Of a DNA stretch of 64,000 bases, positions 27,675 to 62,252 are shown in pieces. Both the position numbers and the translations under genes were made by a program. Origin of the DNA: Pseudomonadales bacterium (lineage in GTDB: Bacteria > Pseudomonadota > Gammaproteobacteria > Pseudomonadales > Pseudohongiellaceae). The stretch is from the NCBI GenBank assembly GCA_022822865.1, contig JAJDYJ010000048.1, forward strand, positions 1-64,000, given 5' to 3'. The stretch's first letter is position 1. Every line of letters starts with the position of its first letter. A model generated the notes under the pieces. The model was given only the letters and a program-made list of their open reading frames with translations. It was not told the DNA's origin and made no database searches.

Positions 27675-28040
27675 TTATGCCGCCCGAAGCCCCCGCATCC
27701 GCTTGACGTTCAACGCCAGACAGACCAGGTCCCACTCGCCCCGGATCTGCTCCAGCCCGTGCAGGCCGAACCGGCGGAAGCCAAGCGTCTCCTTGATCCA
27801 GCCAATGGGCACCTCGGCCCGCCACTTGCGTTGCGCGTATTGCACCCGCCCGGCTTCGGTGGCCAGTTTCGCGGCCATGCGAGCCTTCGCCGGATGTTTT
27901 TCCGCGTCGGCCTCGACCTGTCGCTTGCCCTCCCGGCCCAGGACCACATGCCCGTCCACTCCCCGATTCTCCAGCGCCGCCAGATCGGCCTCGTTGCAGT
28001 AGCCCGCGTCGGCCAGCACTATCGCCGCGGAAGACGATCT
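27675..28040 (-). mobile_element. 3' remnant of an IS1182/IS5-type transposase
   Basis: This part encodes the C-terminal half of a DDE transposase: ADAGYCNEADLAALENRG, VLGREGKRQ, then IGWIKETLGFRRFGLHGL and EWDLVCLALNVKRMRGL. These are typical of the IS1182-like group, and include the catalytic Glu region. The N-terminal half, including the first two aspartates, is missing, and the frame continues into the second remnant at about 28040. It is not functional. The 289 bases between radC and this remnant (27386-27674) hold no gene. Confidence 0.75.
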
Positions 28041-28460
28041 CCAGACCTGGCGCAAGCGCTTCGCCAGCAAGGCCAGAATCGCCCAGGCGTGCCGGACGCC
28101 GTCGCTGTTGCCCGGACGCAGCCAGGCCGCAAGCAGCCGGTCTTCGCAAAATACATGCAGGGGAAGAAAAACAATAACGGCCTTAGTACCCATGAAAAAA
28201 ACGGCCTTCCCACATGCCATGCACCGGATCGTCGGTGGCATCGAAGTCCAGCACCAGACGCGGGGTGGGCACGGAAAGGAAGCGATGAACGATTCCAGTA
28301 GCGCCTCGTGCAGGCGCACTGCGTCTTCCCGGCCCATCCCCTGCTCGAAACGGCACAGCGTGGAAGCGCCGGCCAGCACCGCGCCGCCGGAAAAAGAGGC
28401 CTCCACGAGGCGGCCTTTGCAACTTGGAAAACGAATGGGTTCCAGATTACAATCCGTCAT
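28041..28460 (-). mobile_element. Scrambled IS1380-type transposase fragment
   Basis: The start MTDCNLEPIRFPSCKGR, the PLHVFCEDRLLAAWLRPGN segment and HAWAILALLAKRLRQVW are the ends of an IS1380-family transposase. A long piece between FSGG and STLCRFE (about 60 residues in intact members) is deleted. In the middle, the DFDATDDPVHG catalytic segment is read in a different frame than its surroundings; a pair of opposite frameshifts restores the original frame. This and the IS1182-like 3' remnant form one 261-codon chimeric frame. Confidence 0.7.
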
Positions 28461-29576: not shown

Positions 29577-29595
29577 TAATCTAAATTACTTGAAC

Positions 29596-32770: not shown

Positions 32771-33472
32771 TCAAGCCTTCCTGACCGTCCAGAGCACCTT
32801 GCCGACAATGTGGGCGTAGTCCGCCCGGACCGTGTAGTCCCCGTACTCCGGATTGGTTGATTTCAGCTGCAGCACTGGTTCCCCGCGTCCGTCTGTGCCC
32901 ATTTCAACGCGCTTGACCACCAGGCCGTCCCCGTCCCACAGCACAAACAGTCCTCCCGCGGCGGGTTCCCGCTTGGACGTGTCGATCAGCAGACGGTCGC
33001 CATCGGACAGCTCCGGCTCCATGGACATTCCCCTGACCCGCAAAACCCGCACCGCGTCCACATCGCCGCCGGCCTCATAGCGGATCATCGCCTCCGGCAG
33101 ACGCCAGCGGGCCCTTTCCTCGATATGCCCGCTGGCAATAGCCCCGGGACCCGCCGCGGCGTCAACGATCACTTCCGGCACGGCGGCCAGGGGTTCCACC
33201 CGCATTTTGGGTTCATGGCCGCTTCGGGGCCGGGTCGATTTCCGCTTGCGCCGGGCCGGGCGTTCCGGATGGTGCAGCTCTTCCGCGTCGCAATCCAGCA
33301 ATCCGGCCAGATTCGCCGCGTCGCGGTGACTGAGCACTTTGGGCGAATTGCGCTCCAGAAAGCCGTGCATGTAGCTCACGTTGCGCCCGATGGCAACGGA
33401 CGCTTCGCGCATGGTCAGGCCGCGCTTCCAGAGCAGGTCGCGAATTTTTTGTCGTACCGGGTCGCTTTGCAT
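32771..33472 (-). CDS. LexA/CI-like repressor with S24 peptidase domain
   Basis: The 233-residue protein has an N-terminal HTH (RGLTMREASVAIGRNVSYMHGFL) and a C-terminal S24 domain with the nucleophile in RGMSMEP and the general-base Lys in LVVKRVE, so it should be able to self-cleave when RecA filaments form during DNA damage. It is a typical switch repressor of prophages and conjugative elements. ATG 33472 is chosen because an upstream in-frame ATG (33514) lies within the promoter. It is divergent from the transfer operon, 63 bp away. The stretch 32536-32770 downstream holds no gene. Confidence 0.88.
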   Translation of the reverse strand: MQSDPVRQKIRDLLWKRGLTMREASVAIGRNVSYMHGFLERNSPKVLSHRDAANLAGLLDCDAEELHHPERPARRKRKSTRPRSGHEPKMRVEPLAAVPEVIVDAAAGPGAIASGHIEERARWRLPEAMIRYEAGGDVDAVRVLRVRGMSMEPELSDGDRLLIDTSKREPAAGGLFVLWDGDGLVVKRVEMGTDGRGEPVLQLKSTNPEYGDYTVRADYAHIVGKVLWTVRKA

Positions 33473-33497
33473 GGTCTTGGGGCTCGCTGTTGGCGTA

Positions 33498-33533
33498 GAT
33501 AATAGCATTATCACTATAACAAACTATTGTCAA
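33498..33533 (-). promoter_or_regulatory. Repressor promoter with overlapping inverted-repeat operator
   Basis: On the minus strand, TTGACA (33528-33533) and TAATGC/GATAAT (33505-33512) form a strong -35/-10 pair about 16-17 nt apart. The -10 region lies within GATAATAGCATTATC (33498-33512), a perfect 6-bp inverted repeat with a 3-bp spacer, and ATAGT-like half sites recur beside it. Such a site would let the divergent S24 repressor control its own synthesis and transcription of the transfer genes. Confidence 0.6.
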
Positions 33534-33535
33534 CG

Positions 33536-34324
33536 ATGTTCCCAGCCTTTATGTTCCGTTCCATGCAAGTACTTCCACACCAGTTCCGGGACATCGTCAA
33601 CGCCTTTCTGGCGCGCACCGGCATGACCCCCGCGCGTCTGGGCAAACAGGCGCTGGGCGATCCGTCCTTTGTTTCGCGGCTGAATTGCGGACGCACGCCA
33701 ATACTGAGAACCGCCGACCGCGTCCTGGTATTTATGGGCGAAGCCCGGCTGGGTCCGGCGTTTCGGGCGGAGGTGGAGGCGTTCCTTTCGGTTACGGGGA
33801 CGAAGGCGTATCTGCTCGGCGCGGACGCGGTCGCCGATCCTTCTTTTGTGCCGCGTCTGCGGCAGGGGTCATCTCCACGGCTCGACAAGGCGCAGCAGGT
33901 GCGCGACTGGATGGCCGCCCATTGTTGTGAAGCCGACCGCGCGGCCATGGAGATTTCGATTGCCGAAATGCTTGCCAAGCCCTGTTCCCCCGCCTCTCTC
34001 ATGGATGGTGGTGGAGTCCCCCGACAGGAGTGCAATGACAAGGTCCACCAGAACGGGGAAAACGAGATCAACCAAAAAAGAGGAGGAGAAATCCCCATGA
34101 CCGGAAAAACCAAAAAGTTCCTGGACACCCGCGAAGCCGCGCGTGTGCTGAAACTTTCCCACAGAACGCTGGACCGCTACCGGGTGACCGGGGAGGGCCC
34201 GGTGTTCCACAAGTTCGGCAGCCGGATCCGTTACGCCCTGTCCGACCTGGAAGCCTGGGCCGAAGCGCGGCGGGTGCGCTCGACCTCGGACGACGGTTTG
34301 GCCGCCGGGAGGGCATCGTCATGA
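33536..34324 (+). CDS. HTH regulator with duplicated N-terminal domain
   Basis: The ORF carries two similar segments of about 55 residues: FRDIVNAFLARTG...DPSFVSRL and FRAEVEAFLSVTG...DPSFVPRL, with many identical positions. They look like tandem lambda-like HTH repeats. A Lys/Asn-rich linker follows, then a MerR/excisionase-type HTH. ATG 33536 is a guess; 33551 is also possible and no ribosome-binding site is obvious. An internal ATG (34097) with a very strong AGGAGGAG suggests that the C-terminal HTH is also made separately. It is the first gene of the transfer operon and overlaps traA by ATGA, so it is likely its activator. Confidence 0.55.
   Translation: MFPAFMFRSMQVLPHQFRDIVNAFLARTGMTPARLGKQALGDPSFVSRLNCGRTPILRTADRVLVFMGEARLGPAFRAEVEAFLSVTGTKAYLLGADAVADPSFVPRLRQGSSPRLDKAQQVRDWMAAHCCEADRAAMEISIAEMLAKPCSPASLMDGGGVPRQECNDKVHQNGENEINQKRGGEIPMTGKTKKFLDTREAARVLKLSHRTLDRYRVTGEGPVFHKFGSRIRYALSDLEAWAEARRVRSTSDDGLAAGRASS
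34097..34324 (+). CDS. AlpA/excisionase-like HTH protein (internal start)
   Basis: Within the previous frame, AGGAGGAG lies 8 nt upstream of ATG 34097. The 75-residue product is a complete MerR-like HTH_17 domain: LDTREAARVLKLSHRTLDRY, then GEGPVFHKFGSRIRYALSDLEAWAE. Such small proteins act as excisionases or activators on integrative elements. No stop codon separates it from the preceding domain, so translation as part of the longer protein is also possible. Confidence 0.65.
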   Translation: MTGKTKKFLDTREAARVLKLSHRTLDRYRVTGEGPVFHKFGSRIRYALSDLEAWAEARRVRSTSDDGLAAGRASS

Positions 34325-42538: not shown

Positions 42539-43290
42539 ACGCGCGCCGGAACGCCAAGATAAACAAAATACCCAAAATTGGGGTCGCGCTGGGATTGCTG
42601 CTTGCGATAGGGGGCGCCGCGGCAAAAGACCTGGGCACACGCGGCGCGTCCTGGCCGGTGACCGAATCGGACCTGCTGGACGAGATCGCCGCGCGGCTTC
42701 GGGACATGGACGCATCCGGCGAGTTGGCCCGGCTGGAAAACGAAGCGAGACAACAGGCCCGGCGCTCGCTGGAGGAACCGGCCCCGGTGGCGGGGATTGG
42801 TCCCGCCGTGGCGTGGAACACCCGCCTGTTCGATCCGTCGATCACCGTGGCGGAAGACCTCCCTGGCCCCGATGGCCAGGTCATCGCCGCGGCCGGAACG
42901 CGGGTCAACCCGTTCGATCATGCGCCGCTCACCGCGGAATTGCTGTTTATCGATGGCCGCCGCGCCCCGGAAGTCGCCTGGGCGATGTCCCGGGCGCTGG
43001 CGCCGGACGGGACACGGGCGGAAACGCCGGCCGTCAAGATCATCCTGCTCGCCGGACGCCCGCTGGATCTCATGCGGCGCCACGGCCACCCGTTTTACTT
43101 CGATATGGGCGGCAAACTGGCGGCGCGGTTCGGCATCCGGGCCACCCCCACGCTCGTGGTCCGGCACGGAAGACTCCTGCGGCTCACCGAAATCCCGGCG
43201 CCGGACGATCCTCCGGAACGCATATCCGAGGCGGAGCCCGCGTCCGCCCACACGAATCCATCAAGCAACAGGAGGCAACCGCCATGCTGA
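42535..43290 (+). CDS. traW: Pilus assembly protein TraW
   Basis: The 251-residue periplasmic protein has a signal peptide (residues 1-31, ending AAAKD) and then DLGTRGASWPVTESDLLDE, the TraW start pattern, plus a C-terminal TrbC-like thioredoxin fold with LARFGIRATPTLVV. In F, TraW and TrbC together are needed for pilus assembly. The ssb start lies within its last codons. Confidence 0.88.
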   Translation: MNARRNAKINKIPKIGVALGLLLAIGGAAAKDLGTRGASWPVTESDLLDEIAARLRDMDASGELARLENEARQQARRSLEEPAPVAGIGPAVAWNTRLFDPSITVAEDLPGPDGQVIAAAGTRVNPFDHAPLTAELLFIDGRRAPEVAWAMSRALAPDGTRAETPAVKIILLAGRPLDLMRRHGHPFYFDMGGKLAARFGIRATPTLVVRHGRLLRLTEIPAPDDPPERISEAEPASAHTNPSSNRRQPPC

Positions 43291-43679
43291 ATATCAACCG
43301 CGTCACCCTGCTCGGCCACGCCGGACGCAATCCCGAACTGATCCAGCTCAAAAACAACGCCCGCGCCGCGGTTTTCAGTCTGGCCACCACCGAGCGCTGG
43401 CGCGACCGGGAGATCGACGCCGCCCGACCCGGTCCGCTGCGCGAGCGCACCGAATGGCACCGCATCGTCGTTTACGGTCCCACGGTGGACATCGTGGAAC
43501 AGCGCGTGCGCAAGGGCAGCACGGTGCTGGTGGAGGGAAAACTGTCGATCCGCGAATACACCGACGGCAACGACAACGTTCGCAACGTGACCGAAATCAT
43601 CGTCGCTGGACCGAAAGCCATGATCAATGTGCTCAACGGCGGCGCTGCGAAAGATTCGGGGGAGGCTGCGCGGCCATGA
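43284..43679 (+). CDS. ssb: Single-stranded DNA-binding protein
   Basis: The 131-residue protein is an OB-fold SSB: MLNINRVTLLGHAGRNPEL, FSLATTERWRD and TEWHRIVVYG are the usual motifs. It lacks the acidic C-terminal DDDIPF-like tip, ending AAKDSGEAARP, so it may not recruit the host SSB partners. A strong AGGAGG lies 8 nt before the ATG. The gene is embedded between traW and traU; element-encoded SSBs coat transferred strands. Confidence 0.93.
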   Translation: MLNINRVTLLGHAGRNPELIQLKNNARAAVFSLATTERWRDREIDAARPGPLRERTEWHRIVVYGPTVDIVEQRVRKGSTVLVEGKLSIREYTDGNDNVRNVTEIIVAGPKAMINVLNGGAAKDSGEAARP

Positions 43680-49096: not shown

Positions 49097-52000
49097 ATGT
49101 TCGAGATCTTCACATTGGGCGGTGGCGTCTATCTCGTCGACCTGCTGAACGCCGTCGCCGCCATCACCGGCGGCGGGGCCTATGTCATGCTCGCCCAGCT
49201 CGCCGGCGTGGCGGGTCTGGCCTGGGTCCTGTTCCGCACCGCTTTTGGCGGCTCCTGGCGCGACAACGCCAAATGGATTCTCCTGTTCGTCGCCGTCTGG
49301 GGCGCGATGATCGTCCCCAAAGCCACCGTGCGGGTGGTGGACCGCCTCGACCCGGCCCTGGCCCCGGCGGTGGTGGGCAACGTGCCCATGGGCCTCGCCC
49401 TGTTCGCCTCCCTCGCCAGCCAGGTGGGCGACGGCCTCACCCGCCTCACCGAACAGACATTCGCCCTCCCCGCCGATCTCGCCTACCAGCGCCACGGCAT
49501 GATCTTTGGGGCCCGCCTCGCCGCCGAAACCACCCGTTTTGAAATCACCGACGCCGTTTTTGGAACCAACCTCCGCAACTACGCCCGCCAGTGCGTTTTC
49601 TACGCCCTCCTCCTCGGCCATGTCTCCGCCGACGAACTGCGCGAGTCCGCCGACCTCTGGTCCCTGATCACCGACAACCGCTCCCCCTCCGCCGGCGCCT
49701 CGCCCTCCCGCATGGTGGCGTTTTCCACCCGCAACGCCGGCGGCGGGGTGGACCAGGCGATCACCACCTGCGCCGACGCGGCCATCCGGCTCGGGGCGCG
49801 GTGGAACAACGAAATCCAGCGCGCCGGGACGATCTTCGGCCAAAGACTCTTTCCCCAGGCCGCCACAGCCACCCTGGCCCGGGCCGAACTCATGGCGGCT
49901 CTGCCATCGGCGCACGCCTTCTTGACCGGCGCCTCCCGGTCCGCCGCGCAGATCATGCAACAGCAGATGCTCCTCAACACTTTTCAGGACGCCGGGGAGC
50001 AATGGTCCGCGGAAACCGGCAACGCCGCCGCGCTCCAGGCCTACACCGAGGCCCGGGCCGAAGCCCAGACCGTGGCGGCCTACCGCGCCATCGGCAGGCA
50101 GGCCGAAACCTGGGTACCGCTGCTGCGCGTCGTCTTCGAATGCCTGTATGTCGGCGCCTTCCCCATGGCGGTGCTCTTGATGCTCACCCCCGCCGGCGCG
50201 GCCATCTTCCGGTCCTATGTCACCGGCCTCGTTTGGCTACAGTCCTGGGGACCGCTCTATGCCGTCCTGCACCGCATCGCCATGGGCGAGGCCGCGGACC
50301 GCATGACGGCTTTCGCCGAAATGCCCGGCGGGGACGTGGGTATTTCGCTCATCGCCCAGGCGGGCGTCCGCGCCGCCGCGGCGGATATCGCGGTGATGTC
50401 CGGCTACCTGTCCATGTCGGTCCCCTTTCTGGCCGCCGCGCTCGCCTACGGGGTCTCCCGCGCCACCTCCCTGGCCACCTCGGTCCTCGCGGTGGGACAG
50501 GATGCCGCCGTCTCCGCCGCCGGGGAGGGCGCCACCGGCAACATCTCGCTCGCCAACACCAATATCGACAGCCACCGCCACGCCATGCTCGAAGGCAGGC
50601 AGATCCGCACCTCGGTTTCTGTTGATGACAGCCGGTACACAAGCTACGCCCCCGGCGGCGCCGCGTTCACGGTAACCGGAGACGGCACGGTGGTCGCCGA
50701 CGCCGCCGGGGCCACCAGCCGCATTCCCGCCGCCGGTGTGCGGCTGTCGGAATCTCTGGCCGCCTCCCACGAAACCCGCGCCGCGGACGCCCGGTCCATT
50801 TCCGGGCAGCTTTCCCTCGAAGCGGGCATCGCCCGCAGCGCCGCCGTAACCGACGCCATCCGGCTCAATGAACGCTACGCGAAGGACATCTCCACCGGGG
50901 AAACCCACGGCCGGGGAATCACCGAAAGCGAAAGCCAACAGGTGCAGGCGCTCCGGAACCATTATGACCGCATGGCGGAAACCACCGGCTTGAGCCGGGA
51001 CCAGATGGCGGCGCTGGCGGCGGAGGCGAAGATCGGGGGCGGTTTTGGGAAGGTCGCGCGTGTCGGCGCCGACGGTTCCGCCCGCTGGCGCGGCCAGACC
51101 ATCGAGTCCGGCGCGTGGAACCGGCTTCAGGAGTACGCCGAAAGCGAACAGGTGCTGGAGCTGTGGTCCGGCGTGCTGGAAGCTTCCCGTAGATACGCGG
51201 CGCAAAGCGGGGAAAGCGCCCACGCGGGACTGGATGAAAGTCTTTCCGCCAATCTCACCGACATGCGACGTTTCGAGGAGCGCGCCTCGCTGGCGCTACA
51301 GGAATCCCAAAACTGGTCGGAGCAGGCGGCGCGGGTGCGCGGCGAGGCCCAGGCCATCGACCGGGAACTGGGGCAGCCGTTCTTCGTGTGGCTGTCCGGC
51401 CGGGAGGACGCCACCGGCAGGATGCTCGGGACGGCGGGGGCCATCAAACTCGCTTCGCCGCAAACCCCGGAAGAGGCCGAAACCCTGCGGCAGTACGCGG
51501 CGGCGTTCGTGGAGCAGCGTTTTGCGCAGCCACAAGGTCCCGACCCCGAATCCGTGCCGGGGCGGGACGATTATCTGGACGCGAGAGACGCGGTGGCGCC
51601 CCGGCAGCTGCGGGAAACCGCGGGAAGTTACGCGGGCCAGGCGGCGGGCATCCAAAACCGGGCGGTGGCGGAAGGGGTGCCCACACCCGAATCCGTGGAG
51701 GAAGCCGTCCGCGCGGCGCGGTCGGAGACCCAGGCCACAATGGACGCGGGACGGGCGGAACGCGGGGCGCGGGCGGCCGATGTCGAAGGGGAAGTCGCGA
51801 CGGGTCGCGCGGAAGTGAAGGAGGAGCAGGAAAAGCCCCTGGTGCAAGGCGCCGCCGAGTCGGTATTGGGCCGGGGATTCTTTCAGCGGATCTTCGGCAC
51901 GGCGGACAATCTGGCCCCCGACAGCGCGGACACTGGGCTGCCTCCAGAGTTGGAATCGCAGCGGCAGCCGGATTCGGAGAATCCATCGGAGCCACTTGCG

Positions 52001-52144
52001 GAGAACCGCGAATCACCCACCCGGGAATCGTTCCAACCGGCGTCCGTGAGAGAACAAGCGGAAGAACCCTCCGCCGCGTCGGAACCGATCCCGGACGCCC
52101 CGGAACAACCCCCATCCATCAACCACAACCGGAGGGTACCGTGA
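49097..52144 (+). CDS. traG: Mating-pair protein TraG
   Basis: The 1015-residue protein has several transmembrane segments in the first 460 residues (VMLAQLAGVAGLAWVLF, WILLFVAVWGAMIV, FPMAVLLMLTPAGAAIF) and a long hydrophilic C-terminal domain rich in Glu, Ala and Arg. This is the TraG layout: the N-terminal part is needed for pilus assembly and the C-terminal part for mating-pair stabilisation and entry exclusion. The start ATG 49097 has AGGAA upstream. Its stop TGA (52142-52144) overlaps the ATG of a truncated traD copy. Confidence 0.88.
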   Translation: MFEIFTLGGGVYLVDLLNAVAAITGGGAYVMLAQLAGVAGLAWVLFRTAFGGSWRDNAKWILLFVAVWGAMIVPKATVRVVDRLDPALAPAVVGNVPMGLALFASLASQVGDGLTRLTEQTFALPADLAYQRHGMIFGARLAAETTRFEITDAVFGTNLRNYARQCVFYALLLGHVSADELRESADLWSLITDNRSPSAGASPSRMVAFSTRNAGGGVDQAITTCADAAIRLGARWNNEIQRAGTIFGQRLFPQAATATLARAELMAALPSAHAFLTGASRSAAQIMQQQMLLNTFQDAGEQWSAETGNAAALQAYTEARAEAQTVAAYRAIGRQAETWVPLLRVVFECLYVGAFPMAVLLMLTPAGAAIFRSYVTGLVWLQSWGPLYAVLHRIAMGEAADRMTAFAEMPGGDVGISLIAQAGVRAAAADIAVMSGYLSMSVPFLAAALAYGVSRATSLATSVLAVGQDAAVSAAGEGATGNISLANTNIDSHRHAMLEGRQIRTSVSVDDSRYTSYAPGGAAFTVTGDGTVVADAAGATSRIPAAGVRLSESLAASHETRAADARSISGQLSLEAGIARSAAVTDAIRLNERYAKDISTGETHGRGITESESQQVQALRNHYDRMAETTGLSRDQMAALAAEAKIGGGFGKVARVGADGSARWRGQTIESGAWNRLQEYAESEQVLELWSGVLEASRRYAAQSGESAHAGLDESLSANLTDMRRFEERASLALQESQNWSEQAARVRGEAQAIDRELGQPFFVWLSGREDATGRMLGTAGAIKLASPQTPEEAETLRQYAAAFVEQRFAQPQGPDPESVPGRDDYLDARDAVAPRQLRETAGSYAGQAAGIQNRAVAEGVPTPESVEEAVRAARSETQATMDAGRAERGARAADVEGEVATGRAEVKEEQEKPLVQGAAESVLGRGFFQRIFGTADNLAPDSADTGLPPELESQRQPDSENPSEPLAENRESPTRESFQPASVREQAEEPSAASEPIPDAPEQPPSINHNRRVP

Positions 52145-52234
52145 TGCGCAACATCGGAGGCTCCACCCTGCGCGGCGGCCAGACTGTCTTTTCCGGCCTG
52201 CACATGTGGGGTCAGTTCACACGGGTGGCTCTGC
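52127..52234 (+). repeat. Direct repeat copy A: truncated 5' end of traD
   Basis: From the ribosome-binding site CAACCGGAGG through ATG 52144 to GGGTGGCTCTG (52234) this stretch closely matches the intact traD start at 54714-54824, with about 10 scattered mismatches. Here the traD frame stops making sense after 30 codons (GSTLRGGQTVF, MWGQFTRVAL), because the cargo insert begins. It is the left-hand copy of the repeat flanking the insert. Confidence 0.85.
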
Positions 52235-53950
52235 CGACTCCGCAACCTGGACTATTGCGTCGAGCTTTTCGCCAATCTCCGGATCGATTTCGTTCTCGGG
52301 CACACAAACGGCAAGTTCATAAAAGTTCTTTTTCAACATCAGGTTGGGGATCTCCAACTTATCGAAGTAAGATTTGAATAAAGGTGTAAGAAAATCGTCA
52401 CTAGCCTTGACATTGGCGTCCCATGGGGAGCCTTTGCCCAGAGTTTTCATCGCTTGACTGACTTCCGCTATGGATTCGCGCATGGCCGCCAAGCGTCGAT
52501 TGGCCTCGGAAGCCGCGAACAACGGCATGGTCTCGAACTCGCTTGACGAAAGGCTGGCATAAGCCTCCAACGTTCTCTCGGTGCAAAGATGGTTTTCGAT
52601 CTCCCGCCGTTTCCAGAACATATGCCTGAGGAAAGGATTTTCGGCGGGCTCGTTCTCCAGTCGGTCGAAAATCGATATGCCTTTCAAGTTTGGCAACGCT
52701 TCCCTGAGCCCGAAAAAATGATGCTCCGCTTGGGCGGGCTGATTTATGACGTAATGCACGAAAGGCCTTTCGAGAGCGCGTTTGGCGCGCTCGTTGTCCA
52801 GCCGGTTTGCGAAGGCTCGAAGTATCGCCAGGTCCGTGGAACCTTCGAGGTAGAGAATCCATCCTGTCTGCTCCGCCTGATAGTATTGATCGTATCCGAT
52901 TTCAGCCAGGGCCTTTCTTAGCTGGCTGCTCCGGGAACCAAGCTGATGTGGCTTTCCGACAAAAGCTATGACCATGTCCCGGCCTGCGGCCTCGTTCAGC
53001 AATACCTCCGAATGGCTCGCGGCGATGATTTGGCTGCCGCTGTCTTGGGCGGCCTCGCTGATCATGTGGTAAATCTGGCGCTGCCGCAGAATCTCAAGGT
53101 GGGCATCGGGTTCGTCCAGCAAGATCACGGAACCGGGGTTTGCGCGCATGTATGCGAGAATCAACAGCGTCTGCTGCAAACCGCGCCCGCTGGATGACAG
53201 GTCCAGTGTGGCGCCCCGTTCACGGTAGCCCAGCGTGATCTCCCCTCTCGCCTCAATGTAGCGGGGTTCTTCCAGGCTGGCTCCGAACAAGTTCTCGATC
53301 TGGCTCACGAGCGTTTGCCACTGGTTTGGATCTTGCTCCAATATGCTGTAACAAAGGTTGCGCAGCACTTCGGCGGTTCGGCCTTCACCCACGCGCACAT
53401 TCACCGCGCCCTGATCCAGCCGGGTTTCGGTGGCGGCCAGTCCGGACATGGGCGGCAGGAAGGCAATGCGTACCGACTTCGCTTCAGGCGGAACGGCCAT
53501 TCTTTCGGGGTGTTTGCCGCCGCTCAGCCTGAGAGGGCGGCAGTAGAACGACTCGGCATTGGCGAAATCGAATTCCAGGCCGCACTTCCAGCACTTGTCG
53601 TTATTGACTCCCTCCACGATGAGGTCGATTCGCACGTTTCTTGTTTGTGTGCGACCTTCGATGTTCCGCACATCGCGCACATGCAGGCCATGCCACAGTT
53701 GATTGGCGCTGGGATGGGGAATGGAGAAAAGATCGCGGCGGTTGACCGTGACGCCAGGCCGCTTTTCGGGCGCGGTCTTGTCCGCGTGCTTCTCGTTCCA
53801 ACGCTTCAGGCCGATGTCCCACAGGGCCAGGGCCTGCATGGCCGAGGTTTTCCCCGAGTTGTTGGGACCGATGAAGACGACCGGATTGCCCAGTTCCACT
53901 TCGACTTCGTCAAAGCGCTTGAAGTTGCGTATGGTGAGCTTGGTAAGCAT
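52217..53950 (-). CDS. OLD/AAA-type ATPase with TOPRIM-like C-terminus
   Basis: The 577-residue protein has an SMC-like ATPase: GPNNSGKTSAM at residues 28-38, ABC-like signature LSSSGRGLQQ, Walker B VILLDEPDAHLEIL and a D/H-loop ASHSEVL. After about residue 370, LYLEGSTDLAIL resembles the first acidic motif of OLD TOPRIM nucleases. This fits OLD-type anti-phage proteins, but the later metal residues are unclear. It runs opposite to the transfer genes, and its last five codons (AEPPV) are read from the traD repeat, showing that the insert joined there. It probably defends the element or host; another AAA role is possible. Confidence 0.75.
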   Translation of the reverse strand: MLTKLTIRNFKRFDEVEVELGNPVVFIGPNNSGKTSAMQALALWDIGLKRWNEKHADKTAPEKRPGVTVNRRDLFSIPHPSANQLWHGLHVRDVRNIEGRTQTRNVRIDLIVEGVNNDKCWKCGLEFDFANAESFYCRPLRLSGGKHPERMAVPPEAKSVRIAFLPPMSGLAATETRLDQGAVNVRVGEGRTAEVLRNLCYSILEQDPNQWQTLVSQIENLFGASLEEPRYIEARGEITLGYRERGATLDLSSSGRGLQQTLLILAYMRANPGSVILLDEPDAHLEILRQRQIYHMISEAAQDSGSQIIAASHSEVLLNEAAGRDMVIAFVGKPHQLGSRSSQLRKALAEIGYDQYYQAEQTGWILYLEGSTDLAILRAFANRLDNERAKRALERPFVHYVINQPAQAEHHFFGLREALPNLKGISIFDRLENEPAENPFLRHMFWKRREIENHLCTERTLEAYASLSSSEFETMPLFAASEANRRLAAMRESIAEVSQAMKTLGKGSPWDANVKASDDFLTPLFKSYFDKLEIPNLMLKKNFYELAVCVPENEIDPEIGEKLDAIVQVAESAEPPV

Positions 53951-54138
53951 CGCTCCGTTCCTTCATGGCAGTATTTTGGATGTTAGCGCGAATATCGCGC
54001 CAATGGGTTGATTTGGCCCAGACTCCCCGGCTTTCGGGCTCTGTGCGGGCGTGATGGTTGGATCCAGGCGGAAACGGGAGTATTCCCGGTGGAGATTCCA
54101 TTGTTCGCCGTGATTTTGCAGTGCCTTGGAAGGGGCAA

Positions 54139-54235
54139 GGCCGACAGTCGGATTTGAACCGAATGCGACTGCGGGCGGAAACCGCCGAGTCGATAACAAG
54201 TGTGCCGGTGTGATTAACCAAGCCGCAATTTGGCC
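54139..54235 (-). other. Class II tRNA-like relic
   Basis: Read on the minus strand, the stretch contains CGG/CCG and GGTTAAT D-arm features, a variable-arm-like GGCGG-TTT-CCGCC stem, and a T arm TTCGGTTCAAATCCG. The anticodon stem (around CTTGTTA) and the inner acceptor pairs do not close, and no CCA follows. It is probably a degenerate tRNA or an unusual variant. It lies in the insert between the OLD-like gene and traD. Confidence 0.4.
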
Positions 54236-54713
54236 GCGGTCCTTCGGATCAGGCCTGAACGGCGGTAGACGCATCCGCCGGGGATTGTGCGGCACGACGG
54301 CGCCAACGTTCAGCGGCTTTAATCAGATTGCGCCGACATGGGCGTTGACGAGTTCGCCGCTGGCCAGGTCGATTTCCACCTGTACCGGGCTGAGCGCTTG
54401 GCATGGCGTGGTTCTTCCGCCTCGCGATGCGGCAAATTAGCCAGTTTCGCGTGTCCTGAAAGTGCCGCACCCCGGACAAGCCGCACTCGCAAAGTAGTGC
54501 GCAAAATTTTGCGCACCAGGTCGCTGGGCATCGCAGGCCTGTCATTGCATGGCGGGGAAGGGTAGGAATACCCCTGCCGAAACTGATTGGCAACGGTTGT
54601 TTTCGCTTTTATGTTGACTCCCATCCAAGCTATATGGCTACACCCCAAAACGCCGCGGCCGCCCTGCCGGGCCGTGCCGGACCCCGGATTCCATCCCGGA
54701 ACCCAAAACACAA
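54236..54713 (+). other. Non-coding tail of the cargo insert
   Basis: I see no supported gene here. Frames on both strands have no ribosome-binding site or recognisable domain. The stretch ends at the right-hand traD repeat. The part 53951-54138, upstream of the OLD-like gene, also shows no gene and probably holds its promoter. Confidence 0.5.
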
Positions 54714-54824
54714 ATCAACCGGAGGACACAGTGATGCGCAACATCGGAGGCTCCACCCTGCGCGGCGGCCAGACCGTCTTCCACGGCCTGCACATGTGGA
54801 GCCAGTTGATTCGGGTGGCTCTGC
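54714..54824 (+). repeat. Direct repeat copy B: intact 5' end of traD
   Basis: This is the right-hand copy of the ~100-bp repeat; the ribosome-binding site, ATG 54734 and first 30 codons of traD lie within it. It matches 52127-52234 apart from about 10 substitutions, then traD continues with its transmembrane domain. Confidence 0.85.
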
Positions 54825-57028
54825 TGGCGGTCGCGTTCTGCGTTGTCGCCGCGCCCGCCTGGCGCGTCTGGAACCAAACCACCGGCTACGATTGGTACAT
54901 CGCCATGATGGTCACCGTGGCCGAAGCCAAACTCGGGATCGGCTACCGGCGGGACGCGATGCAAACCGTCCGCTCGCGGGAAGGCCGCGAGGTGGTCCTG
55001 ACCCTCCCCCGAATCGCCGAAAACCGGGCGGCGCTGGATGTGCGGGAGAACCTGAAAAACCTGATCTTCGACAGCGCCATTCTTGGGGCAAAGCTCGCGG
55101 GCGGGGTCGTCGCGCTCATGCTCGTCCTGTTCTGGATCCGCGGCCGCAATCTCACCCGGGACCAGAACATCCGGGGTGTGGAGCTGGCCACCGCGCGCCA
55201 GCTCAAACGCCGCATCCGGCCCCCGCATCGCGCCATTTGGGGCGTATTTGCGGAGGCCGCCGCCGAAAAACCCCACCGCGTCGCCGGCGTCCCCTATCCA
55301 AAACACACTGAAACCCGCCACACCATCATCTCCGGCACCACCGGTTCCGGCAAGACTGTTTTGATCTCCGATCTTGTCTCCCAGATCCGCGACCGGGGCG
55401 GGCGCTGCGTCATTTACGACAAGATGGGCGGGTACACCCGCGCCTTTTATGATCCCTCCCGGGATGTATTGCTCAATCCCCTGGACGCCCGGAGTCCCCG
55501 GTGGTCCCCCTTCTTCGAGGCCCGCGGCCCCCGGGATTTCGACACCATGGCCGCGGCGCTGATTCCCCAGCAAAAGGACACCGTCGATCCCTTCTGGGTC
55601 ACCGCCGCAAGGCAACTGTTCGCCAACGGCGCGGGCGTGCTGCACCAAAAAGGCGTGACCGAAAACCGCATTCTGGTCGAACACCTGCTCAAGACCGACC
55701 TGTCCGATCTGGCAAAGGCCATGCAGGGCACGGTGGCCCAGTCCATCGTCGATCCCGACAATCCAAAAACCGCGCTGTCGGTGCGCGCCATGCTCACCGC
55801 CAACATCGGCGCCCTGGAGTTCCTGCCCGACACGGGCAACCCCTTCTCCATCCGCGAATGGACCGCCGACGACCGCGAAGAGGGTTTTCTGTTCCTCACC
55901 TCCCGGGGCGACCAGCACGCCAGTTTGCGGGGCCTCATCTCCACCTGGCTCGAAATCGCCGTCAACACCATGCTTTCCCTGGAGCAGGACGACCAGCGGC
56001 GCATCTGGGTGGTGCTGGATGAATTGCCCACCCTGCACCAGGTGCCCAGCCTCCAGCCGGGCCTGGCCGAATCGCGCCAGTTCGGGGGGTGTTTCGTGTT
56101 GGGCATCCAGGTCATCTCGGCCCTGCGGGACCTGTATGGCAGAAACGGCGCCGAAACCATTTCGGGCCTGTGCGGCACCAGGGTCGTGCTCGCCTCCCCG
56201 GACCGCGACACCGCCCAGTGGTCCGCCGACAGCCTTGGCCGGGGCGAGGTGGAGGAGATGAGCGAGGGCTTCTCCTATGGCGCCAGCACCATAAGGGATG
56301 GCGTCTCGCTGACCAGAAAGCGGGAACTGCGCCCGCTGGCCCTGGCCTCGGAGATCATGCAGCTCGACGCCCTGCACGGCTGGCTCCGCTTCCCCGGCCC
56401 GCTCCCGGTCGCCCCCATCCGGCTGAAATGGAAAAAGCGGCCCAAAATGGCGGAGCGGTTCGTGGCAAGGCCGAAGGGGATGGGGAGGGAAGAGTTGGTG
56501 GAAGACACCCGGCAAACCGATGAAGAAACAGCGGCAGGCATGGAAGGCATGGCGGAAGTCCATGCGGAAATTGTTTCGGATTCGGAGTTTTACGCCGACA
56601 CCAAACCGCCGGATTCGGGCAGCCAAACCGATACCGGCAGCGGACCAGGGAAGCCCCGACCACAAACCCGCAAGGAAAAAATCCCGCCCGCGCCGTCGCG
56701 GGTGATGGCCGATGCGCAGATTCCGCTGCTGCCGCCGCCGCCGGAAGCGGAAACCGCATCTTGTCCAGAGCCGGGAAAAGATGACAATGGCGCGAAACCG
56801 GATACGCGGGTCAATACCCAAGACAACAAGAAGGGCCAGCCAAAACCCGCGAGGAAGGCGGATGCCGAAACAAAGCACGGGGGCACGGACCAAAACCAGA
56901 ACGCGGAAGGCAATGAGCAAACCGGAACCGCGAAAACAGACACGGAAGAGCCCGAATCGACCAATGCGGACATAACCAAAGAGGGGCAGGATGTCGATTC
57001 CGGTTCGGATGACGAAGGCTGGCTGTAG
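54734..57028 (+). CDS. traD: Type IV coupling protein TraD
   Basis: The 764-residue coupling protein feeds DNA and the relaxase into the secretion channel. It has two transmembrane helices (about residues 27-45 and 115-135), Walker A GTTGSGKT near residue 201 with TIISG before it, Walker B WVVLDELPTLHQ, and the GVELATARQL motif. The C-terminal 170 residues are Pro/Lys/Glu-rich and low-complexity, ending in the acidic DDEGWL tail typical of TraM-binding coupling proteins. GTG 54731 is an alternative start; AGGAGG precedes both. It lies 2 bp before traI. Confidence 0.95.
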   Translation: MRNIGGSTLRGGQTVFHGLHMWSQLIRVALLAVAFCVVAAPAWRVWNQTTGYDWYIAMMVTVAEAKLGIGYRRDAMQTVRSREGREVVLTLPRIAENRAALDVRENLKNLIFDSAILGAKLAGGVVALMLVLFWIRGRNLTRDQNIRGVELATARQLKRRIRPPHRAIWGVFAEAAAEKPHRVAGVPYPKHTETRHTIISGTTGSGKTVLISDLVSQIRDRGGRCVIYDKMGGYTRAFYDPSRDVLLNPLDARSPRWSPFFEARGPRDFDTMAAALIPQQKDTVDPFWVTAARQLFANGAGVLHQKGVTENRILVEHLLKTDLSDLAKAMQGTVAQSIVDPDNPKTALSVRAMLTANIGALEFLPDTGNPFSIREWTADDREEGFLFLTSRGDQHASLRGLISTWLEIAVNTMLSLEQDDQRRIWVVLDELPTLHQVPSLQPGLAESRQFGGCFVLGIQVISALRDLYGRNGAETISGLCGTRVVLASPDRDTAQWSADSLGRGEVEEMSEGFSYGASTIRDGVSLTRKRELRPLALASEIMQLDALHGWLRFPGPLPVAPIRLKWKKRPKMAERFVARPKGMGREELVEDTRQTDEETAAGMEGMAEVHAEIVSDSEFYADTKPPDSGSQTDTGSGPGKPRPQTRKEKIPPAPSRVMADAQIPLLPPPPEAETASCPEPGKDDNGAKPDTRVNTQDNKKGQPKPARKADAETKHGGTDQNQNAEGNEQTGTAKTDTEEPESTNADITKEGQDVDSGSDDEGWL

Positions 57029-57030: not shown

Positions 57031-60000
57031 ATGGTCGTCTCGGTCGGCGCCGTGGCCTCCCCCTCCCAGGGCGTGTCCTACTATGAACGGGACGGCTACT
57101 ACGCGAAAGACGATCCCGAACACCGCAACGCCAGCGCGTGGCGGGGCAGGGGCGCCGAGGCCCTGGGCCTTTTTGGCGCCGTGGACCCGGACACTTTCCG
57201 GGCCGTGCTCGAAGGCCATGTCCCCGACGGCTCGGGAAGGCGTTTGGGCCGGCGCGACAAGGGCGGGGAAGTCACCCACCGCCCGGGACGCGACCTGACC
57301 TTCTCCGCGCCAAAATCCGTTTCCCTGGCCGCGTTGGTGGGCGGCGATGAACGGGTGGTGAAGGCCCACGACCGCGCCGTGGCGCGCACGCTCTCGTGGG
57401 TCGAGGAAAACACCGCCAAAACCCGCATGGCGGATCCAAGCAGCAAAAGGATGGTCCAGGTGGGGAACCAGAAAACGGTGGCGGCCACTTTCCGGCACGA
57501 CACCTCGCGCAACCTCGACCCCCAGCTTCACACCCACGCGGTACTCGCCAACATGCTCCTTGGCGAAGACAACAAATGGCGCTCGATGTCCAATGAATCC
57601 CTCTACCGCCAACAAAAGCTGATCGGCATGATCTATCGCGGCGAACTGGCCCACAACCTGTCGCGCCTGGGCTATTCCATCGAAAAAACCCACGCGGACG
57701 GACGTTTCGAGATCGCCGGAGTGTCCCGGGAAACCATCGAGGCGTTCTCCACCAGAAGGAAGGAAATCGAAATGGCGATGGCCGAAAGGGGCGACCAGAC
57801 TTCGGCGGAAAATCCAGGACTGGCGGAACGGGCCGCGCTCATGACCCGGGCGGGCAAGCGCGATGTGGACAAGGCGGCCCTGCGGGAAAGCTGGCAAAAG
57901 CAGGCGGAAGGTCTTGGCCTGGACGCCAGGGAACTGGTGGAAGAAGCCAGACAGCGGGAGGTTTCCCGGGAAGGGAAAGCATCGCAACCTGGTCATGCCA
58001 TTGGAAAAGACTCCGCAAGACAGGCGGAAGTTGCGGCGGGAGCCTCCAGGCCGGAACCGGAATTGCAACCGGAGTTGGATCTGGAACCGAAACCCGAATC
58101 GGAACCCGAAAAGACGGTCCCGCAACAAGCCGCCGAATGGGCGATGAGCCATCTCTCCGAGCGGGATGCCGTGTTCAGCCGCACCGATATTCTGAAGGCC
58201 GCGCTGAGCAGGGACCCCGGCGCCGTTCGCATTCTCGAGGCAAAGGAAGCGGTGGAGGAATTGCTCGCCGATGGACACCTGCATGCCGCGGAAGCCCATG
58301 CCTCGGGCGAAGGCCTGACCACGGACCAGGCCCTGGCCGACGAAAGGGAGAACATCTCGCTCATGCGGGAAGGCCAGAACCGGGTTTCTCCCCTGATGCG
58401 AAGCTGGATGGTGAGCGCGCGGCTGCACAGGGGCGCATTGACGAAAGGACAACAGGAAGCCGCCAAGCTGATTCTGGGGTCAAAGGACCGGGTGGTGGGC
58501 GTGCAGGGCTATGCCGGGACCGGCAAGACCACAATGCTGCGGCGGGTCAAACAGTTGGCTGAAAAGAACGAATACAAAATTGCAGGCCTTGCCCCTTCCG
58601 CCTCCGCCGCCCAGACACTGGCCTCGGAAGCGGGTATCGGAACCGAAACCCTGCAGCGCTTTCTGGCCCGCAACGCCGGGGTGGCCGAAGGCCGATTGAC
58701 CCCAAAGGGCGAAAGGGACATGCGCGCCGCTTTCGAGAAGACGGTATTGATCGTGGACGAGGGCTCGCTCGCCTCGACCACCCAGGCCCGGGACCTGCTC
58801 CGGATCGCCAACATCCTGCGCGTGCCGCGCCTGGTGCTGGTGGGAGACAAAAAGCAGCTGGACGCGGTGGATGCCGGAAAACCCTTCGCCCAGTTGCAGG
58901 CGGCGGGCATGCGAACCGCGGTCATGGACGAGATCATGCGCCAGCGCGATCCGGACCTGAAGGCCGCGGTGGAGGCCAGCCTGGCGGGGGAAATCCAACA
59001 GGCGTTCGAAAAGCTGGGAGACAGCATCGCCCAGGTCCAACCCGACAACATCGCCGGCGCGGTTGCCGCGAGATGGCTCAAACTCTCACGGGAAGGCCGG
59101 GAGCGCACCGGCATCATGGCGCCGAGCCACAAGCTGCGCAACGCCGTCAACGGGCACATCCGGGAACGTCTTGAAAAGGAAGGGCAAATCCAGGGTCCCG
59201 AAATCACGCTGGAGAGGCTGGTTTCCCAAGGGTACACCAACGCCGAAAAGTCCGTTGGCAAGAACTACCGGCGGGGAGACGTGGTTGTGTTCCACCGTCC
59301 CTACAGACGGCTTGGCGTGGAAAAGGGGGAAGAGCGGATCGTGATGGCCTCCGACCCGGACAGCAACCGGGTCTTTTTGCGGGGAACCGACGGGCAGCCC
59401 CTAAAATGGGACCCGCGCCAGATCGCGGGAAAACGGGGCGGCAGCGAGGTGTACCGGACCGAAGAAATCCAACTGCGCGCCGGGGACCGCATCCGCTGGA
59501 CCGCCAACGACAAAGCCCACGGCCTGGTCAACAGCCACACGGCTGAGGTAACGAAGATCACCCAGGACCGCATATCGCTAAAACTGGAGGACGGACGCGA
59601 ACTGAATCTCGACAAGAACAGCCAACAGATGCGCCATATCGACTACGCCTGGGCTTCGACCGTGCACGCCTTCCAGGGCCGCACGGTGGACAACGTGATC
59701 GCCGCCATGGAGGCAAAACATCCGAACCTGACCACCCAGAAAAGTTTTTATGTCGAAATCAGCCGGGCAAGGGACCGGGCGGAACTGGTCACCGATGACG
59801 CCAGGGCGCTGAAGGAACAGCTGGAAGCGGTCACAGGGGAGCGCATGGCGGCACTGGAGGGCATCGGGGAGGCGAAACGCGAAGAGCTGGAAAAGACCAC
59901 CGAACCCCCACCAAAAGAAGAATTGGCGTCAAGCAAGGAACCAGAGGCTCAACAGACCCGGGATCACCCCGACACGGCCATGGAAAGCCCTCCAACTGAC

Positions 60001-60132
60001 CACTGGCTATCAATCGAGGGCACAGTGCCGGATCTGGCCTGGGAACAGATGGAGCACACACGATCCGGGTCGGCGGAAAAGGAGCTGGGTCGCGAACAGA
60101 TCCGAAAAAGGGATTCCGGACTGGAACTGTGA
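57031..60132 (+). CDS. traI: MobF relaxase-helicase TraI
   Basis: The 1033-residue protein nicks the transfer origin and unwinds the strand. The N-terminal TrwC domain has the catalytic tyrosines (Y17, Y18 and Y23, Y24 in SYYERDGYY), and the HUH site around H156 with H167 and H169 in LDPQLHTHAV. A second region has the RecD-like helicase: GYAGTGKTTML (G493 onward), EGSLASTTQ and a UvrD-like VDYAWASTVHAFQGRT. It is smaller than F TraI (1756 aa), closer to TrwC. The stop lies in a perfect inverted repeat. Confidence 0.95.
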   Translation: MVVSVGAVASPSQGVSYYERDGYYAKDDPEHRNASAWRGRGAEALGLFGAVDPDTFRAVLEGHVPDGSGRRLGRRDKGGEVTHRPGRDLTFSAPKSVSLAALVGGDERVVKAHDRAVARTLSWVEENTAKTRMADPSSKRMVQVGNQKTVAATFRHDTSRNLDPQLHTHAVLANMLLGEDNKWRSMSNESLYRQQKLIGMIYRGELAHNLSRLGYSIEKTHADGRFEIAGVSRETIEAFSTRRKEIEMAMAERGDQTSAENPGLAERAALMTRAGKRDVDKAALRESWQKQAEGLGLDARELVEEARQREVSREGKASQPGHAIGKDSARQAEVAAGASRPEPELQPELDLEPKPESEPEKTVPQQAAEWAMSHLSERDAVFSRTDILKAALSRDPGAVRILEAKEAVEELLADGHLHAAEAHASGEGLTTDQALADERENISLMREGQNRVSPLMRSWMVSARLHRGALTKGQQEAAKLILGSKDRVVGVQGYAGTGKTTMLRRVKQLAEKNEYKIAGLAPSASAAQTLASEAGIGTETLQRFLARNAGVAEGRLTPKGERDMRAAFEKTVLIVDEGSLASTTQARDLLRIANILRVPRLVLVGDKKQLDAVDAGKPFAQLQAAGMRTAVMDEIMRQRDPDLKAAVEASLAGEIQQAFEKLGDSIAQVQPDNIAGAVAARWLKLSREGRERTGIMAPSHKLRNAVNGHIRERLEKEGQIQGPEITLERLVSQGYTNAEKSVGKNYRRGDVVVFHRPYRRLGVEKGEERIVMASDPDSNRVFLRGTDGQPLKWDPRQIAGKRGGSEVYRTEEIQLRAGDRIRWTANDKAHGLVNSHTAEVTKITQDRISLKLEDGRELNLDKNSQQMRHIDYAWASTVHAFQGRTVDNVIAAMEAKHPNLTTQKSFYVEISRARDRAELVTDDARALKEQLEAVTGERMAALEGIGEAKREELEKTTEPPPKEELASSKEPEAQQTRDHPDTAMESPPTDHWLSIEGTVPDLAWEQMEHTRSGSAEKELGREQIRKRDSGLEL

Positions 60133-60178: not shown

Positions 60179-60288
60179 TCCACCCCGGCTATAGAACTAT
60201 CCTGCGGCAGCTATGCGTGGTGTAGGTTCAAAATCTTGGGTTTGGCTCAGACTTGCAACGCAATGCATTGCGGGGGGAGAATTGCATC

Positions 60289-60559
60289 ATGCGAATAAAG
60301 CACAAGGGATTGCGGGCTCTGGCCGAGGACGATAATCCCCGCAAGTTGGCGGCAGATTTGGCACCGAGGCTGAGGCGGATTCTGACTGCGTTGGAAGAGG
60401 CGCAAGGCCCGTCTGATATCGCAACCCGGCCTGGTTACCGGCTGCATCCATTGAAAGGAGACAAGGCTGGCTACTGGAGCATCAGCGGGTAATTGGCGTG
60501 TGGTGTTCCGATTCGAAGATAATGAGGCAGTGGATGTGGATTTGCTCGACTACCACTGA
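60289..60559 (+). pseudogene. higB: HigB-like toxin, frameshifted
   Basis: MRIKHKGLRALAEDDNPRKL, LAPRLRRILTALEEAQ and GYRLHPLKGD are the HigB (RelE-fold) toxin pattern. After GYWSISG the frame meets TAA at 60490-60492. Removing one base there (T60490) restores NWRVVFRFEDNEAVDVDLLDYH and a stop at 60559, exactly the HigB ending. So a 1-base insertion breaks the toxin. The ATG has GGGGGGAGA upstream. Confidence 0.85.
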
Positions 60560-60577
60560 GACCGAGGAGAATTGAAA

Positions 60578-60835
60578 ATGGCAATGCTGAATCCCTGCCA
60601 TCCTGGCGAAACCATCCGTGACGACCTGGAAGCGGAGGGGCTGACAATTACCGCGGCCGCGGCGCGGCTGGGATGCACCCGGCAGGCATTGTCTCGGTTG
60701 TTGAATGGCAATGCGGGGATCTCACCGGCTATGGCCTTGGCGCTGGAGCGTCTTGGATGGAGCAATGCGGCTTATTGGATGCGGCTGCAGGCAGCCTACG
60801 AACTGGCGCAGGAGCGCCAAAGGCAGGCGGCTTGA
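60578..60835 (+). CDS. higA: HigA-like antitoxin
   Basis: The 85-residue protein is an XRE-type antitoxin: CHPGETIRDDLEAEGLTITAAA, CTRQALSRLLNGNAGISPAMAL. HigA binds and represses the higBA promoter and neutralises the toxin. ATG 60578 has GAGGAG about 8 nt upstream. The paired toxin gene is frameshifted, so HigA now probably acts only as a repressor. Confidence 0.9.
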   Translation: MAMLNPCHPGETIRDDLEAEGLTITAAAARLGCTRQALSRLLNGNAGISPAMALALERLGWSNAAYWMRLQAAYELAQERQRQAA

Positions 60836-60876: not shown

Positions 60877-61752
60877 TCACCGGCGAAAGCGCACGGTCCA
60901 CGATTCTTCCAGTTCGGCTTCTTCGTCCTCGAATTCGTTCGGGGCTTCCATGCCGGTGAGCACGGTCAATGTCTTGCCATAGCTGCCCAGGCCGACTACC
61001 TCCTCGTAGATTTCCTGCCGGTGCGGCCCATTGAACCAGTCCTGAAGACTGGATTGGCCTTCTGCTCGCCGCCCTCGGGCGATGTTGTTGGTATCGGCAT
61101 TGAAGGCGGACGTTACGGTGCCGGAAGGCAATTTCGAGCCTTTCCGAACCCAGTCAATATTCGGAAACTCCTTCAGCCGATCAGACAGGTACGCGTAGTC
61201 GACAACCGCGCCTTCACTCCGAATAACGGCCACGGGATCGCGGCTGACCTGCGCGTATCGGATGGCGGTAGATTCAAGCGATGTTTCGCACGTAGCCTGG
61301 AGGCCTTCTATGGCCTTGAGCCCATCCTCGAGTCGGTTCATGGCAGCGGTGAAGGGGGCGACGGGCATCAACAACGCTGCTGCGAAATGATCCGCTTCCT
61401 GTTCGTATCGATCTCCGCTGCGAAATCCTGCCCTTGAAAAGTGCTGACCGCGGTCATCCACGACAGCATCGACATGTCCGGGCAACCGAAAGTGCCCTAT
61501 CTCATGGGCGACGGAAAAACGCTTGAAGCCCTCGTTTTTGATGTGAGTCGGGTAGCCGATGCCGAAAACACCGGCAACATGAATTAGCATGCCGGAGGCC
61601 CCGCCGGCGGACGCAGGCATGGCTTTCAATTTGATGTCAAGGAGACTAGCTATTTCGAAAGGATTGACTGGGAGTGAGGCTATGCCGAGTTCGCTGAGAA
61701 GTCGCCCCGCCTCCTGCTGTGCCATGGAGAACTGATCGCGTCGCATAAGCAT
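60877..61752 (-). CDS. ImmA/IrrE-type metallopeptidase
   Basis: The 291-residue protein has the zinc motif HEIGH (H83-E-x-x-H87) in FSVAHEIGHFRLPGH, and a helical C-terminal region. ImmA-type peptidases cleave the repressor encoded beside them and start a transcriptional switch. The ATG directly follows the TAG of the XRE gene, which lies upstream on the same strand. The likely target is that repressor. Confidence 0.88.
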   Translation of the reverse strand: MLMRRDQFSMAQQEAGRLLSELGIASLPVNPFEIASLLDIKLKAMPASAGGASGMLIHVAGVFGIGYPTHIKNEGFKRFSVAHEIGHFRLPGHVDAVVDDRGQHFSRAGFRSGDRYEQEADHFAAALLMPVAPFTAAMNRLEDGLKAIEGLQATCETSLESTAIRYAQVSRDPVAVIRSEGAVVDYAYLSDRLKEFPNIDWVRKGSKLPSGTVTSAFNADTNNIARGRRAEGQSSLQDWFNGPHRQEIYEEVVGLGSYGKTLTVLTGMEAPNEFEDEEAELEESWTVRFRR

Positions 61753-62115
61753 CTACTCGGACCATTCAGTTCCCTGTTTGGCCTTTCGCGACAGCATCTC
61801 GATGAACTCGTCCGCCATCTCCTGGTGCTCTGCCGACAGTCCGGAGTAGTGGCGATGGAGTTGATCGACAGTGGCCGTTGACGCCTCCATGTTATCGGAG
61901 CGGCCGACCAGGTAGTCAGTCGTCACCCGCAGTGCGTCCGCAAGGCGCCTGAGGTTGTCGAATGATGGTTTGCGAGTCCCCGTCTCGAAGTGCGAAACGG
62001 CAGACGCCTGAAGATCAGCTCGACTCGCCAATTCGCTTTGACTTAGATCTCGGGCGCTCCGTGCGCTACGCAGCCTTAACGGAAAAATCTCGGTTGGTTT
62101 GCTTGACGAATTCAT
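61753..62115 (-). CDS. XRE-family repressor
   Basis: The 120-residue protein has an N-terminal HTH (ARDLSQSELASRADLQASAVSHFETG) and a helical C-terminal part. The frame stays open further upstream, but ATG 62115 has a proper N-terminus (NSSSKPTEIFPLRLRSAR) and lies within the palindrome TTACGATATCGTAA. It is probably cut by the ImmA-like peptidase and represses the divergent DUF2188-ubiquitin-like operon; this is inference. Confidence 0.85.
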   Translation of the reverse strand: MNSSSKPTEIFPLRLRSARSARDLSQSELASRADLQASAVSHFETGTRKPSFDNLRRLADALRVTTDYLVGRSDNMEASTATVDQLHRHYSGLSAEHQEMADEFIEMLSRKAKQGTEWSE

Positions 62116-62198
62116 TACGATATCGTAAATTCCTAAATGACGATTGTGACAGGGGCCAGTGGCCCTTTGTTTTTGGCCATACTCATGACGATTTCGTC
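62115..62198. promoter_or_regulatory. Divergent promoter region with two palindromic operators
   Basis: TTACGATATCGTAA (62115-62128) is a perfect 14-bp palindrome across the start of the XRE gene. A related site GACGATTTCGTC (62187-62198) has the same CGAT-n-CG core. Both look like operators for a dimeric HTH protein and control both directions. The XRE repressor is the obvious candidate. Confidence 0.6.
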
Positions 62199-62252
62199 GC
62201 ATTATGCATTACGAAGGTCATCGCCACAAGGAGAATAACAGGAGAATTGAAC

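Follow-up and report, generated by a model that had tools for sequence, protein, structure and literature searches.

The traG-traD junction of an F-type conjugative element in a Pseudomonadales bacterium (Pseudohongiellaceae) is interrupted by 2,481 bases of inserted DNA, which we examined within a 64,000-nucleotide stretch of the genome (contig JAJDYJ010000048.1, positions 1 to 64,000; hereafter the window). This insert is a mosaic of an ATPase gene, the end of an insertion sequence (IS) and a relic of a transfer-cluster control region, and it probably represents the left end of a second F-type conjugative element, related to the first and joined into it by recombination. The original prediction had ascribed the junction to recombination between related elements that created a cargo hotspot. 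The presence of DNA from a related element is upheld by the control-region relic beside the right end of the insert, whereas the hotspot is not, and a fusion scar is more likely than a site that preferentially takes up new genes. Such a scar belongs to a known class of events, of which it is a readable instance. The features of the junction are as follows.

49109-52144, plus strand: traG (TraG_N, 7.1e-101), its stop overlapping, as TGATG, with the first codon of the left traD copy.
52126-52234, plus strand: left copy of the traD 5' end (ribosome-binding site, start codon and ~30 codons), cut off by the joint with the ATPase gene.
52217-53950, minus strand: OLD-like AAA ATPase gene, 577 amino acids (Pfam AAA_21, 1.7e-19; AAA_15, 7.8e-19).
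53983-54373, minus strand: 3' end of an IS that we take to belong to the IS1380 family, with the IS terminus at 53983/4.
54362-54633, minus strand: decayed control region, comprising the N-terminal half of an S24 repressor (minus), the operator region and the first ~15 codons of g1 (plus).
54634-54715, strand not assigned: 82 bases between the control-region relic and the right traD copy.
54716-54824, plus strand: right copy of the traD 5' end with its ribosome-binding site, continuous with intact traD.
54734-57028, plus strand: traD, an F-type coupling protein gene, open and full length (TrwB_AAD_bind, 2.3e-140).
57031-60132, plus strand: traI relaxase/helicase gene, intact and adjoining traD (TrwC, 1.2e-85).

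The layout agrees with what had been predicted, in that a copy of the traD start lies at either end of the insert (52235-54715), an OLD-like ATPase gene occupies the opposite strand and traD is intact at the right. A repeat search places the two copies in a direct repeat of 109 nucleotides with 89% identity, and, with the right copy and traD as queries, the whole genome yields the left copy (E 5e-34) and no third one. Both copies contain the ribosome-binding site CCGGAGG, the TGATG overlap and ~30 traD codons, in which 82 of 91 coding bases are identical; the nine that differ comprise two at first, two at second and five at third codon positions. At the differing sites the base of the right copy is mostly the one shared by 35 related loci (described below), and at codon 23 it is mostly that of the left copy, so the left copy seems the more changed of the two, with some change in both. 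The downstream gene encodes a protein that scores 516.9 bits against the coupling-protein model TIGR02759, slightly below its cut-off of 521.35. At the left joint the ATPase gene and traD have three bases in common (TGC), and the ATPase stop codon falls, in antisense, within the left traD copy. Target-site duplication by an integrase or transposon was rejected as the main cause of the repeat, as the repeat is ~10% diverged and the end of the IS lies inside the insert; reading the open reading frames (ORFs) of the insert by eye, we recognized no integrase.

The right part of the insert supports the presence of DNA from a related element. Positions 54362-54633 are collinear with the element's own control region (33228-33569) over three blocks of 73%, 70% and 75% identity, and a profile built from three related elements with the window excluded (A, B and C87; see below) detects both the native region (2.9e-111) and the relic (3.8e-4 and 2.7e-3); on the window read in reverse (E up to 1) the same profile matched nothing. 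The native region, together with the cargo beside it, comprises three genes.

29503-32535, plus strand: cargo beside the repressor, a UvrD helicase with a PD-(D/E)XK nuclease, of defence type.
32771-33514, minus strand: S24 repressor of the tra-cluster control region (Peptidase_S24, 2.5e-15), conserved in relatives.
33527-34324, plus strand: g1 (HTH_17), which opens the tra cluster, is oriented divergently to the repressor and is conserved in relatives.

This arrangement was compared with nine control loci (A, B, C87, C73, C10, C44, C66, C19 and C14), which were picked from the better matches of a repressor search that also returned weaker matches in other contigs. The S24 repressor and the divergent g1 are found in all nine, and the content on the far side of the repressor is variable. 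Defence-type genes occupy this slot in four of ten loci when the window is included: a methylase, Vsr and an EcoRII-type enzyme in C14, DrmA with DrmB in C44, a ShosA-like protein in A, and the UvrD helicase-nuclease of the window, for which the best models are a DRT helicase and GajB. The remaining loci hold other or unidentified genes, such as an integrase-like ORF (by eye) in C66; a scan with defence models gave no match at 1e-10 for two further ORFs (in A and C19) and for one ORF of C44. Because the slot is variable and often of defence type, the order ATPase-IS-repressor in the insert could be the left end of another member of the family. A perfect 20-bp palindrome (54497-54516) was considered as an operator and set aside, since it lies in the coding relic of the repressor and is unique, both in the window (allowing up to 3 mismatches) and in the genome (18-bp core, up to 1 mismatch).

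The relic might also have arisen within a single element, had the control region and the traD start been copied into the traG-traD gap and then decayed. Among the control regions searched, those closest to the relic are the window's own and that of A (73%), as such a copying would predict, and the left traD copy departs from the relatives more than the right one does. However, segments copied simultaneously should diverge alike, which is difficult to reconcile with 73% for the relic and 89-90% for the traD copies, and an internal duplication would not have brought in the ATPase gene and the IS. We regard this explanation as improbable.

The left part of the insert points to a slot of the same kind. 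Positions 53983-54373 match the ends of IS copies in the genomes G823, G029 and G018 and elsewhere in the bacterium's own genome, and the common end of these copies lies at 53983/4, ~32 bases from the start codon of the ATPase gene; that the IS end adjoins the ATPase start supports the fusion. A related transposase is encoded at 27675-28460 of the window (Pfam DDE_Tnp_1_4). The ATPase region (52232-53953) is 80% identical in DNA to G820:C21:6608-8329, where the match begins and stops at the ends of an ATPase gene whose product is 83% identical in amino acids; the alignment indicates that the window protein misses only ~7 C-terminal residues. In G820 this gene stands in a one-strand type I restriction-modification (R-M) gene row, composed of an hsdM-like gene (TIGR00497, 178 bits, below the cut-off of 243), a nucleotidyltransferase-binding protein gene, a nucleotidyltransferase-HsdS ORF (Methylase_S, 4.6e-18), the ATPase gene and hsdR (TIGR00348, 566 bits). 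The nucleotidyltransferase domain and HsdS are thereby read in a single ORF (L078, 8410-10451), beside a MntA/HepT-like nucleotidyltransferase-binding protein and inside the R-M row. RloA of Campylobacter is likewise an AAA ATPase linked to a type I R-M locus, which resembles the placement of the G820 gene between hsdS and hsdR; unlike these loci, the window copy stands alone, with no hsd genes in the insert.

Synonymous and nonsynonymous divergence between the two ATPase genes (dS 0.95, dN 0.11) point to selection on the gene over most of the time that separates the two copies, and are silent on the time since insertion. The ABC-type ATPase domain is supported by the Pfam matches listed above and by a PDB match (6p74) at that domain. 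As regards a Toprim domain, an E-x-x-TD motif is present, which we presume to be the Toprim motif, but the DGD of three distant homologues is unconserved in the window and G820 copies. The structure model (mean pLDDT 60, fold matches with low TM-scores) is too poor for a functional claim. The two cargo genes of the window (29503-32535 and 52217-53950) resemble the halves of a Gabija system, a GajB-like UvrD protein and a GajA/OLD-like ATPase, and lie 20 kb apart; this pairing is probably due to chance, the genes being apparently of different origins.

Together, the diverged second control region and the second traD start are pieces of two distinguishable, related elements, and a course of events can be proposed that would connect them. 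The second element's slot would have held the ATPase gene, of the type found in R-M operons, with the IS1380-type element beside it. This second element would have come to lie beside or inside the first, and deletions on either side of its left end would have followed. One of these would have produced the left joint, cutting the first element's traD after ~91 coding bases and linking it, through the three bases in common, to the final codons of the ATPase gene; a further deletion would have taken out the second element's tra genes between about codon 15 of g1 and a point shortly ahead of traD. A single working tra set would be left, with the genes from the repressor to traG derived from the first element and traD, presumably with traI, from the second. 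The order of these steps, and a single donor for all of the pieces, are what we infer from the arrangement.

Encounters between related elements appear to be common, as at least two related traD loci are present in 11 of 19 assemblies by our own tally, in which binning could have mixed genomes. Comparable outcomes are described for the SXT/R391 family of integrative and conjugative elements (ICEs), in which, according to the portion of PMC2786100 that deals with them, tandem arrays give rise to hybrid ICEs, some of them without RecA. The likeness is that two related elements recombine in one cell and that the product carries genes of both; the window differs in that its joint is illegitimate and has left a scar, in which cargo and debris of a control region persist, and in that its assembly contains no second element.

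Comparison with elements A (G864:C692) and B (G858:C79) locates a change of lineage elsewhere. In 500-base intervals, the window is mostly 82-97% identical to A from the repressor to ~49.0 kb (the lowest intervals are at 0.73, 0.76 and 0.79), and identity falls sharply at the start of traG (49109). The amino acid identity to A is 92% for TraC, 91% for the ORF before traG and 82% for the N-terminal part of TraG, as compared to 56% for its C-terminal part and 72% for TraD; for the latter two the best match is B (64% and 78%, respectively). Judged from these identities, position 49109 may be a recombination breakpoint, either in the window or in A. A flank of A of 1.27 kb is 95.6% identical to window positions 26233-27503, and the same segment is found at 96% identity in G823, which belongs to the window's genus; on account of this flank, the contig of A may stem from a host near that of the window and not from the metagenome-assembled genome (MAG) under which it is filed. 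The segment itself is a cassette of RadC/acyl-carrier type (named by eye) that is present in several genomes of the genus and repeated in some.

Several observations weigh against a simple fusion at the insert. The lineage switch relative to A lies 3 kb to the left of the insert and not at its joint, and the C-terminal part of TraG and TraD are both nearest to B. The traD copies are closer to one another (89-90%) than the control regions are (73%), and thus a single donor must itself have been a mosaic, or else two events took place. The fusion leaves positions 54634-54715 unexplained: this stretch had no match in genomes of the genus, in plasmids or in related loci, and a proposed homology to the 3' end of traG was discarded as not significant, with 86 of 1000 shuffles scoring equally well. 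An intact second element or a tandem array was nowhere found, and none of the relatives carries the insert. As the lineage switch misses the joint, we speak of a fusion scar and not of a proven hybrid with its crossover at this site.

An artificial origin was also weighed, in which the contig would join two molecules at the insert. The genome is a draft of 105 contigs and assemblies with related elements often hold several copies, both of which would favour misjoining; however, the assembly has no second copy of traD or of the repressor to cause it, and a fresh misjoin does not explain the decay evident in the truncated IS and the gapped repressor relic. An assembly chimera is very improbable.

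To gain insight into what normally separates traG from traD, related loci were compiled. A contig scan yielded 40 loci encoding TraD relatives, mostly in alphaproteobacterial MAGs, and a repressor search in 10 genomes added A and B, giving 42 loci. The traD start is readable in 35 of these and is a single copy in every one, as the original prediction required of sites without the insert; two extra matches are at chance level (E 0.91 and 0.68). In the 25 loci that hold both the traG end and the traD start, the gap measures 469-1032 nucleotides, and a minus-strand gene of ~118 amino acids is present in all 27 complete gaps (these 25, A and B; the match in L028 extends over 45 residues only). A gene for single-stranded DNA-binding protein (SSB) also lies in the gap of 9 of the 25 loci and of L038. 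The ATPase gene was found in no gap among the related loci searched.

These gaps bear directly on the cargo hotspot, according to which the traG-traD interval repeatedly gains cargo and the repeat is left by uptake, for example through homology-facilitated illegitimate recombination anchored in traD. The interval does vary, as the SSB gene attests, and a duplicated traD start is what one-sided homology plus an illegitimate joint would produce; the left joint, with only 3 shared bases, is of the corresponding type. Such recombination is described in PMC3240628, in the part concerned with E. coli conjugation, as occurring at very low frequency. However, the repeat is absent from all 35 relatives, SSB carriers included, although the prediction had called for it at sites with other content; the 27 complete gaps otherwise contain the same small gene, with no cargo other than SSB; and uptake leaves the control-region relic beside traD unaccounted for. 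The hotspots HS1-HS5 of SXT/R391 ICEs, as presented in sections of PMC2791158, are intergenic, with borders that are nearly fixed across elements carrying different cargo. They resemble the window in having variable DNA between core transfer genes that remain intact, but here a single element has cargo and its relatives have the same small gene. We consider a hotspot unlikely, and the fusion of two elements remains the preferred explanation.

The small gene is itself of interest. Its product contains two hydrophobic segments in all four cases examined, the two that were scanned gave no Pfam match above the cut-off, and with a mean amino acid distance of 0.49 it is the fastest-evolving of three proteins compared (0.34 for the middle of TraG, 0.18 for TraD). 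We claim no co-evolution with TraG, because its correlation with TraG (0.70) barely exceeds that with TraD (0.64). Being adjacent to traG, small and endowed with inner-membrane features, it is a candidate entry-exclusion gene on sequence grounds. In the F plasmid the gene order is traG-traS-traT-traD. As stated in passages of PMC11493245, F and SXT/R391 encode their exclusion factors right beside TraG, the target of these factors, and traG and eex form one exclusion unit in SXT/R391 in the account given in part of PMC2791158. The relatives of the window element likewise have a small gene next to traG; in contrast to traG-eex and traG-traS, theirs runs antisense to traG and matches no known family, and the window lacks it. 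Six queries found no match in the window, and a single query, whose blank result is weak, found none in the bacterium's genome. The window gap also lacks SSB, which is encoded at 43284-43637.

The original prediction further held that the regulation of traD is unchanged, a view that finds no support: 2.5 kb with an antisense gene split traG from the working traD, and the DNA upstream of traD is the relic of another control region. In this arrangement traD is presumably transcribed apart from traG. Consensus scans placed promoter-like and terminator-like sites at chance level (2 versus 1.0 expected, and 5 versus 3.3 expected, respectively). Speculatively, and with little probability, the small gene was lost and, if it is an exclusion factor, its loss admitted the related element whose left end is now fossilised in its place, leaving traD-traI behind a relic repressor-operator and uncoupled from the transfer operon. 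The small gene may have gone before the fusion or during it, both being possible.

Wider searches through 97 relatives, 390 genomes of the order and 369 genomes of the class uncovered no close relative of the element; one genome of the same genus encodes a TraD at 36% identity, and 20 other genomes gave only short matches. A plasmid collection contained only TraD relatives below 60% identity and weak relatives of the ATPase, with no match to the right part of the insert, and viral contigs gave no matches. Titles found on sponge-symbiont ICEs and on ICE repressors accompanied by defence cargo include no description of this element family, although this does not prove that the family is undescribed. 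Downstream of traI, the window contains a HigB/HigA-type toxin-antitoxin pair (60253-60835) and a repressor-protease-type pair (60877-62202; HTH_3 at 61753-62202, partner by eye).

What appeared to be a hotspot of gene capture thus becomes the probable, and readable, scar of two merging conjugative elements. It also draws attention to two features of the family: the repressor is flanked by a slot that takes defence genes, and traG by a candidate exclusion gene. This candidate is missing exactly where the second element seemingly left its mark.

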